DNA from: Steroidobacter agaridevorans
GTDB lineage: Bacteria > Pseudomonadota > Gammaproteobacteria > Steroidobacterales > Steroidobacteraceae
Assembly (NCBI RefSeq): GCF_009932555.1
Contig: NZ_BLJO01000001.1
Span: forward strand, 1,453,258 to 1,517,257
Direction: 5' to 3'
DNA: 64,000 nt
Made by a program: the position numbers and the translations under genes. Each line of letters opens with the position of its first letter. The stretch's first letter is position 1. Shown piece by piece: positions 23,397-25,496 of this stretch. The notes below the pieces were generated by a model. That model saw nothing but the letters and a program-made list of their open reading frames with translations, made no database searches and was not told where the DNA came from.

Positions 23397-23834
23397 TCAG
23401 GGTCTGGGAGTCTTTCGCTGGGCGCGCTCATCGCTTTCGCGCTGCTCGCGTCGTTCGGTCACATGGCGCTCTTCGGCCTGCCAGCGCTCGACCACGTGGC
23501 CCAGCGCCTTGGAACGTTTCAAAGCTTCCTGCCACTTTACGCGCTCGGCTTCGTGTTCGGCGCGGGCGCGGTTCACAAGCGCCTCCTGCTGCTTGATGGC
23601 CTCAGCCAATCTTGCGAGAAAGGCTTGATAGTCCCGCATTTCCATCACGCCGATGCCGCCCGCGGCGCGCTGCTGGAAGCCCTGTTCGTACTCGGCCTTG
23701 TAGCGCACCAGCTCTTCGAGCTTCTTCTCGCCGTCCAACAGCCGCTTTTCGAACGCCGCCACGCTCATCGCGAGACGCTTTTGCGCCTCGTCGACGATGT
23801 GCTGAACGGGCTCGAGTCGTTTCGCTCGCTTCAT
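23397..23834 (-). CDS. fliJ: Flagellar export chaperone FliJ
   Basis: A 145-residue coiled-coil protein: near-continuous charged heptads from MKRAKRLEPVQHIVDEAQKR to the Arg/Glu-rich end. FliJ is the rotor-like stalk of the FliI hexamer and recycles export chaperones. It follows fliI in order but is separated from it by a 298-bp palindromic element. As a result its ATG lacks a strong ribosome site (only CAGG, 8 nt away, contributed by the element). Confidence 0.93.
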   Translation of the reverse strand: MKRAKRLEPVQHIVDEAQKRLAMSVAAFEKRLLDGEKKLEELVRYKAEYEQGFQQRAAGGIGVMEMRDYQAFLARLAEAIKQQEALVNRARAEHEAERVKWQEALKRSKALGHVVERWQAEERHVTERREQRESDERAQRKTPRP

Positions 23835-23838
23835 CTAA

Positions 23839-23870
23839 GGGGCCTGCTGACTCTCATTTAATGGGCTGCG
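23839..23870 (+). repeat. Left terminal inverted repeat of the fliI/fliJ element
   Basis: 32 bp from GGGGCCTGC to GGGCTGCG; exact reverse complement of 24105-24136. It ends 4 nt before the fliJ start codon in minus-strand orientation. Confidence 0.95.
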
Positions 23871-23966
23871 ACGAGCTATTGCGGTTCAGGGCTAGGCGCG
23901 ACGACCGCCGTGTACTCTCCGTACATAAGGGAGGAGTAACGACGTCCTGAACCGCAATAGCTCGTC
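23870..23966. repeat. Internal perfect 21-bp inverted repeat with 55-nt loop
   Basis: GACGAGCTATTGCGGTTCAG plus one G (23870-23890) pairs exactly with 23946-23966. The loop carries a smaller imperfect pair (TACTCTCC with GGAGGAGTA). Confidence 0.92.
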
Positions 23967-24043
23967 CCATCAAAGGATATTTATTCATTAAATGGGTTGC
24001 GCCTCCCGATTCCCATATAAGACATGGGCCTGCCGCTGCGTTA

Positions 24044-24075
24044 CAAAGCTTGCCCCCGTAGGGGGCTGCGCTTTG
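24044..24075. repeat. Internal GC-rich hairpin of the element
   Basis: CAAAGC-TT-GCCCCC, loop GTA, GGGGGC-TGC-GCTTTG: a 12-bp stem with a 2x3 internal loop. Confidence 0.8.
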
Positions 24076-24104
24076 CGCCTTGCTGCAGGCGATTGGAGGC
24101 GCAA

Positions 24105-24136
24105 CGCAGCCCATTAAATGAGAGTCAGCAGGCCCC
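24105..24136 (-). repeat. Right terminal inverted repeat of the fliI/fliJ element
   Basis: Exact reverse complement of 23839-23870; begins one base after the fliI stop codon (minus-strand sense). Confidence 0.95.
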
Positions 24137-24137
24137 A

Positions 24138-25496
24138 TCAGCCGCCTCCCACCAAGGCCTGCAACTGCGCCAGGCTGGTGCGGTAGTCGACCGACTCGTG
24201 GACGTTCTGCTGCAGGAACTTCTGCATGGCCGGCCACGCGGCAATGGCTGCGTCGATGCGGGGATCGCTGCCTTTGTTATAAGCACCGATCGCGATCAGG
24301 TCGCGGTTCTGCTGGAACGTCGACAAAGCTTGTTTGAACTGACGCGCCATCGTCGAATGCTCGTGCGGCACGATCTCGTGCATGACGCGGCTGATGGACG
24401 CTTCGATATCGATCGCCGGATAGTGACCCGCTTCGGCGTAACGACGCGTCAGCACGATGTGACCGTCGAGAATCGCGCGCGCCGAGTCTGCAATGGGATC
24501 TTGCTGATCGTCGCCTTCGCTCAACACGGTGTAGAAAGCCGTGATCGAACCCGCGCCGCTATCGCCATTACCTGCGCGCTCCACGAGCTGTGGCAGCTTG
24601 GCGAACACAGACGGCGGATAACCTTTGGTTGCCGGTGCTTCGCCGATCGCGAGACCGATCTCACGTTGCGCCTGTGCGAAACGAGTGAGCGAGTCCATGA
24701 TCAGCAGAACGTTCTTGCCTTGATCGCGGAAATATTCGGCGATGGCCGTCGCGCGCCACGCGCCATGCAAACGCATCAGCGGAGTATTATCAGCCGGCGA
24801 TGCGACGACGATGGAGCGGGCCAGGCCTTCCGGCCCGAGAATGCGCTCGACGAATTCCTTCACTTCGCGACCACGCTCGCCGATCAGACCGACGACGATC
24901 ACATCCGCGGTCGTATAGCGAGCCATCATGCCGAGCAGCACGCTCTTACCGACGCCGGAACCTGCAAACAAACCGATACGCTGGCCGCGGCCGACTGTGA
25001 GCAACGAGTTGATCGCGCGCACACCGACATCGAGCGGTTCTTCGATCGGTTTGCGCATCAATGGATTGATCGGCGCACCGACCATGCGAATGCGATCTTC
25101 GCAGTTCAGCGGCCCGAGGCCATCGAGTGCATTGCCTGCGCCATCGATGATGCGGCCCATGAGCTGGGGACCGACGATTGCCGTGCCCGCGCCGGTGCGA
25201 GGAACGACGCGTGCGTTCGGCTTGAGGCCGTGAATGTCGCCGGTGGGCATGAGATACAAACGATCGCCCGAGAAGCCGACGACTTCGGCTTCGACGCTGT
25301 GACCGTTCGTTCCCAACACGTCACACCGATCGCCAATCGCCGCCTGACAACCCGCTGCTTCGAGCGTAAGTCCAATCATGCGAGTGAGCACGCCTTCGAC
25401 CGGCGGCGGCTCCAGTCGATCGACGAGCTTCGAGGCACGCTGGAGCTGCTTGGCCCAGTTCGCGCCGCGCTTGAGTTGCAGGACCGGAGTGCTCAT
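24138..25496 (-). CDS. fliI: Flagellar export ATPase FliI
   Basis: Hexameric ATPase (452 aa) powering substrate unfolding and export. The Walker A is [15 protein letters not shown] (about 170-184), the Walker B region [20 protein letters not shown], and the C-terminal half is F1-beta-like ([40 protein letters not shown]). The protein is full-length: the palindromic element begins one base after its stop. Overlaps fliH by 4 nt. Confidence 0.97.

Follow-up and report, generated by a model that had tools for sequence, protein, structure and literature searches.

Non-autonomous transposable elements of the MITE type are usually regarded as what is left of a single IS within a species or genus. 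In REPINs and BIMEs two hairpin units lie inverted on either side of a spacer, REPINs being smaller than the 298-bp element considered here. Correia elements (NEMIS), RUP and BOX are, like this element, small non-autonomous repeats found near genes, and to our knowledge they have other ends and no known comparable four-way junction.

IS711 is given as an IS of 842 bp with two overlapping frames, which seems to duplicate the TA of YTAR and is reported to prefer insertion into the Bru-RS1/Bru-RS2 palindromic repeats of Brucella (PMC2266754); these repeats measure 103-105 bp (PMC2267715). In Paracoccus, ISs of the IS427 group are 832-865 bp long and nearly all have 2-bp repeats (PMC3281130). The IS427-group ISs (IS711/IS6501, IS1248) have the consensus ends, the YTAR target and the TA duplication in common with the element family described below, whereas the element carries no transposase gene and four IS loci with matching ends carry no element core. 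Bru-RS1/Bru-RS2 are likewise repeated palindromes tied to an IS of similar type, differing from the element in size.

The window, a stretch of 64,000 nucleotides of Steroidobacter agaridevorans, contains a 298-bp palindrome which is a mobile element (Table 1). The perfect 32-bp terminal inverted repeats reported in a preliminary description are borne out by arms complementary at every position, and so is its account of an element without a transposase, no such gene being present within the 298 bp. The window copy has the ends GGGG...CCCC and, after the extra G of its arm, differs at 3 of 16 bases from the family consensus GGGCCTGTTAACAC. As single-stranded DNA, the region 23830-24145 is predicted to fold with -111.4 kcal/mol, shuffles averaging -52.0 (z -14.4), and as RNA of the minus strand with -196.3 kcal/mol (z -17.1), none of the 100 shuffles being as good in either case. 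The predicted DNA fold is a perfect four-way junction of the outer stem, two long hairpins (A and B) and a small one (C), in which the helices abut at 23870/23871, 23965/23966, 23996/23997 and 24104/24105 with no unpaired base. Hairpins A and C together match R2, a covariance model of the family, at 23868-24000 with an E-value of 4.1e-27, the window copy being part of the R2 training set, and hairpin B gives a weak minus-strand match to it at 24028-24090 (29.3 bits, E 8.1e-4).

Table 1. Positions of the element, its predicted parts and the flanking genes in the window.
Feature	Coordinates	Strand	Description
fliJ	23397..23834	-	PF02050, E 1.2e-21; 4 bp between start codon and element
Whole MITE-like element	23839..24136	.	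298 bp; copies elsewhere, empty sites
Left terminal arm, outer stem of the predicted four-way junction	23839..23870	+	32 nt, 100% complementary to 24105-24136
Hairpin A	23871..23965	+	Predicted stem 23871-23892/23944-23965 (22 bp); conserved core CTAGGCGCGACGACCGCCGTGTAC...AAGGGAGGAGTAACGACG
Small hairpin C (CCCAT...ATGGG)	23966..23996	+	Predicted DNA fold
Hairpin B	23997..24104	+	Predicted 10-bp base; diverged inverted core of hairpin A at 24028-24090, minus strand
Right terminal arm	24105..24136	+	32 nt, pairs with the left arm
fliI	24138..25496	-	PF00006, E 5.8e-87; PF18269, E 8.1e-28; 1 bp between stop codon and element

Both flanking frames are open and their Pfam domains confirm the assignment to FliI and FliJ, the frame at 24138-25496 being assigned as FliI from its domains and its place among fliF, fliG, fliH, fliJ and fliK. 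The joined flanks of 14 insertion sites were searched over 14 genomes of the genus and the spanning matches were then aligned. The window site, for which a search for empty counterparts had been proposed, is empty in all four same-genus relatives with a spanning match (G011, G002, G008 and G010) and reads CATCTAG in two of them, CATCTAA in one and CATCTGG in one, followed by NTCA. The spacing between fliI and fliJ in these four aligned relatives is 5 bases; the element does fill a gap, as proposed, though the two genes do not strictly abut without it. No duplication is visible at the window copy, since its flanks, once joined, are exactly as long as the empty site, and the earlier observation to this effect is correct for this copy but not for the family, whose members often have TA on both sides within CTAG. 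The motif GGGAGG upstream of fliJ stays in fliI and lies 298 nt further off unless the outer stem folds, and the element may possibly affect fliJ in a secondary manner through this displaced motif.

A DNA search of 40 genomes (the genome of the window and 39 relatives) gave matches in six, all of the same genus. Three full copies are present in the own genome, namely that of the window and two with 87% and 85% identity to it, and Peristeroidobacter soli JW-3 (G002) has 16 full-length and 2 partial matches. The outcome named in the preliminary description as contrary to mobility, a single copy with its sequence conserved in all relatives, is therefore not what is seen, as further copies were found and the relatives are empty. 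The perfect arms had also been taken to imply recent movement or active maintenance; they are perfect, but do not prove very recent movement because the other copies in the own genome are only 87% and 85% identical.

The genomic surroundings and the arms were analysed in 20 copies, since one of the 21 full-length matches of this search had no locus. Gene 3' ends lie within about 20 bp on both sides of five of these copies, on one side of nine and on neither side of six, a tally which takes L001 as one-sided, its left match being a chance frame (raw script count 6/8/6). The first G of the element completes a TAG stop codon on 10 sides of the 20 copies. Diverged copies in two further genomes (G003 and G012) differ in ends and stems and have the same fold and core.

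Several shorter or altered forms were also observed. An extra insert of about 25 nt (CGTGACCAACGGAAATGCC...GGCAC) interrupts the hairpin A core in some G003 copies (L028, L034 and L038). The genus also contains remnants with internal deletions or truncations, clear at L080, L081, L083 and L088 and partial at L079 and L086, some remnants keeping one terminal sequence with CTAG at the far side. Palindromes of about 50-55 bp in related genomes (L306:285-336, L307:332-383 and L371 at about 299-353) contain little beyond two terminal repeats placed back to back and are apparently the smallest forms of the family.

The target site was examined by alignment with orthologous sites and by counts of the flanking bases. 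In 2 of the 12 aligned sites (L045/L184 and L047/L186) the ortholog carries CTAG and the filled site, rather cleanly, C-TA-(element)-TA-G, homology being clear on the left flank only. The duplication is not clean at the other 10; among these, L029 has a length that fits a TA duplication, its relatives reading TCAG, and the remaining junctions are too diverged or give no simple fit. Delimitation was achieved for 107 of 111 loci, 95 of them with a G-run usable for the flank count. TA is present on both sides in 48 of these 95 elements and lacking on one or both sides in 47, and YTA is found on 111 of the 122 TA-bearing sides. A TA duplication in YTAR is seen for many members, the window copy itself not being one of them. 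The tetranucleotide CTAG is under-represented in the 64-kb window, with 12 occurrences (one inside the element) against 28.2 expected under an order-2 model.

Ends vary between the subfamilies while the fold stays. A rough pattern sort of the 107 delimited members gave 72 with GGGYCTGTT-like ends, 22 with GGGARCCTCTGATT-like ends, six with GAACCTATCTCA-like ends and seven with none of these, and 38 of the 107 have perfect arms. Differences between arms were counted over 31 positions in 19 copies, L027 being excluded for its shortened right end; the mean is 0.47 within a copy versus 2.44 between copies, and re-pairing of the arms between copies gave none as similar as the real pairs in 10,000 trials. 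The arms of one copy change together, because the difference within a copy is far below that of re-paired arms. Such joint change could be due to selection on pairing, to one arm templating the other or to a recent origin of each copy.

A search for the enzyme mobilising the element, proposed at the outset, showed nearly the same ends on transposase-bearing IS5-family ISs of other genera and no IS5-type transposase in the own genome. Two ISs with the ends CTAGGGCGTGTTAACAC were identified in G081 and G105, which belong to another family of the order, and their frames match PF13340, PF01609 and NF033580 (transpos_IS5_3). The IS of G081 reads CTA-GGGCGTGTTAACACTAA...TGTTAACACGCCC-TAG and contains transposase pieces in two frames (PF13340, 1.5e-23; PF01609, 1e-12; NF033580, 2.7e-40). 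Ends placed by script and reading GGGCGTGTTCACACTA adjoin IS5-family transposase genes that are annotated on Cupriavidus oxalaticus and Polaromonas sp. JS666 plasmids, and one end of the Polaromonas JS666 IS is identical to the family consensus. ISs L300 and L301, in which the transposase occupies two overlapping frames, differ from the consensus at one base. The four matching ISs are 819-861 bp long by script, flanking bases included, and from their length, target and frames they probably belong to the IS427 group. Model R2 matched none of these four IS loci; there is no element core there and therefore no sign of an IS-derived interior.

Within the genus, PF13340 was found in none of the 14 genomes, the own genome included. 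PF01609 was not found in G000 (the own genome), G002, G011 and G012 and has three matches in G003, which were rejected as the mover since no element-type ends lie beside them by the patterns tried. PF13358 (IS630) was also rejected as a candidate, having across five genomes one match above the cut-off and one below, both in G003, and none in G000; the frames of its weak matches in G002 (one) and G011 look like other integrase-type transposases. No autonomous IS with the same ends was seen within the genus, where a loosened scan over 17 single-ended loci detected no partner end 800-900 bp off; about half of the 14 inspected are internally deleted remnants, the rest being due to chance or unclear. 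For the GGGARCCTCTGATT ends, a pattern search of 8 genomes found no transposase. A scan of 17 stretches (those of the 20 fetched which bear on these ends, 10 of them inspected in part) and 12 loci revealed no pair of such ends 800-900 bp apart and one loose pair at 638 bp. At L364:150-460, the apparent end of an IS3-type transposase gene adjoins TAGGGGNACTCTGATTTATTC ends by eye, and the second end type may derive from this gene.

Conservation of the fold extends well beyond the genus. A 15-sequence alignment has double compensatory changes at 12 of 34 pairs. The first covariance model, R1, matched 42 of 396 genomes of the order, in 11 of 72 genera, and the second version R2, built from the R1 matches with a short calibration and hence rough E-values, matched 92 of 398 genomes from the phylum, in 50 of 213 genera, with 59 of the 92 reaching E<=1e-8; the own genome is included in both counts and at most 8 candidates were scored per genome. 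As a control, R2 was run on 45 loci with no known member and produced nothing at E<=0.01, the best value being 0.2. In 51 matches from 28 loci (27 of the R2 phylum survey and one Azotobacter plasmid), 93.9% of the cells are paired versus 63.3% in shuffles, the covariation score is 0.748 versus 0.199 (0 of 500 shuffles) and slid structures are 35-39% paired; these pair counts lean to the structure because R2 was built from R1 matches and the alignment A4 was fitted to R2. A model-independent blastn search with the hairpins of distant members located the core on plasmids of Azotobacter, Halomonas and Pseudomonas.

Outside the genus 83 members were delimited, 60 of which are 260-275 bp long, 17 longer and 6 shorter. 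CCC(TTC)GGG or CCC(GAA)GGG occurs in the middle part of 29 of these 83 and is absent from 54. In many members the core is present twice in inverted orientation, and many give two overlapping inverted model matches. Searches of phages found no member, those of plasmids none carrying the window element, those of E. coli none with one distant member as the query and those of IMG/VR none with the core pattern.

Taken together, these data argue for a non-autonomous transposable element (MITE) with IS5/IS427-type ends, moved in trans into CTAG/YTAR, whose interior is a conserved folding module, a reading to which a probability of roughly 85% may be assigned. The assignment to the IS5/IS427 type was made because the family ends match those of IS5-family ISs, together with the descriptions of IS711 and the IS427 group. 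Like a MITE, the element is short, devoid of a transposase gene, dispersed in copies, polymorphic in its presence and equipped with ends shared with ISs; a matching transposase in the same genome, a usual though not required attribute of MITEs, was not seen in G000. The composite palindrome family proposed as the other option in the preliminary description is equally in keeping with the copies, the empty sites and the ISs with nearly the same ends. The searches show directly that copies are dispersed, that sites are empty in relatives, that a target is preferred, that IS ends match and that the fold is conserved, while the nature of the enzyme is deduced from these results. A transposase of the IS5/IS427 type, formerly present or provided by an incoming IS, probably moved the copies in trans by recognising the ends (consensus GGGCCTGTTAACACT), and insertion into CTAG/YTAR would duplicate the TA. 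Such insertion would be tolerated because CTAG/YTAR sites often are or overlap the stop codons of genes. The interior is, on this reading, a conserved module and not a decayed transposase gene, its single strand forming a four-way junction in which the core hairpin occurs twice, inverted. By bringing both ends together, for example at a replication fork, the folded single strand may favour mobility.

Several other explanations were considered. It is conceivable, though rather improbable, that the parasite is the fold itself, a DNA or RNA module spread over the phylum as a junction-perfect four-way structure, wearing the ends of several ISs and using whichever transposase is available, with the folded strand pairing the ends and being the recognised or protected form.

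A structured non-coding RNA or an mRNA 3'-end element maintained by selection on the RNA and hitch-hiking on IS ends appears unlikely. The core sequence is conserved, the stems covary and the core strand has more G-T wobbles than A-C mismatches (38:16 for the outer stem of A4, 82:35 for A3), but a folded DNA strand would give the same wobble excess and the related rows are not independent. The excess weakly favours a folded single strand, DNA or RNA, over the copying of a duplex palindrome alone. No promoter- or terminator-like site is present in 23600-24400, and Rfam 15 contains no corresponding family, with nothing up to E 1 within the window copy and none up to E 0.1 over 12 loci, 11 of them with members; the patchy presence and the empty sites likewise speak against an RNA.

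A REP/REPIN-like origin, in which two inverted hairpin units are moved by a Y1 (RAYT) transposase recognising the folded strand, is very improbable. The presence of the core hairpin in two inverted copies, often near gene ends, is reminiscent of such repeats, as is the weak match of hairpin B to the core on the opposite strand. Y1_Tnp (PF01797) is present in 6 of the 14 genomes of the genus, of which G012 alone, with one match, was also among the genomes that the element matched in the first DNA search; it was not found in the other five copy-bearing genomes (G000, G002, G003, G008 and G011). In contrast to REPINs and BIMEs, the element has a TA target and long ends common to IS5-family ISs, and a size of about 260-310 bp is usual among members. 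An origin as a regulatory structure local to the fliI-fliJ junction, which the placement of the element exactly between both genes might suggest, is refuted by the empty sites of all four aligned relatives and the homologous copies at unrelated loci.

The MITE with IS5/IS427-type ends belongs to a family with a phylum-wide four-way fold under changing ends, which seems to be undescribed in Rfam and in the open-access literature searched. It offers a natural sequence predicted to fold as a four-way junction without unpaired bases, and the model serves the annotation of many intergenic palindromes. The conservation of the interior fold over that of the ends, in 50 of the 213 genera sampled, suggests that the interior of a MITE may have a function, which can be tested.
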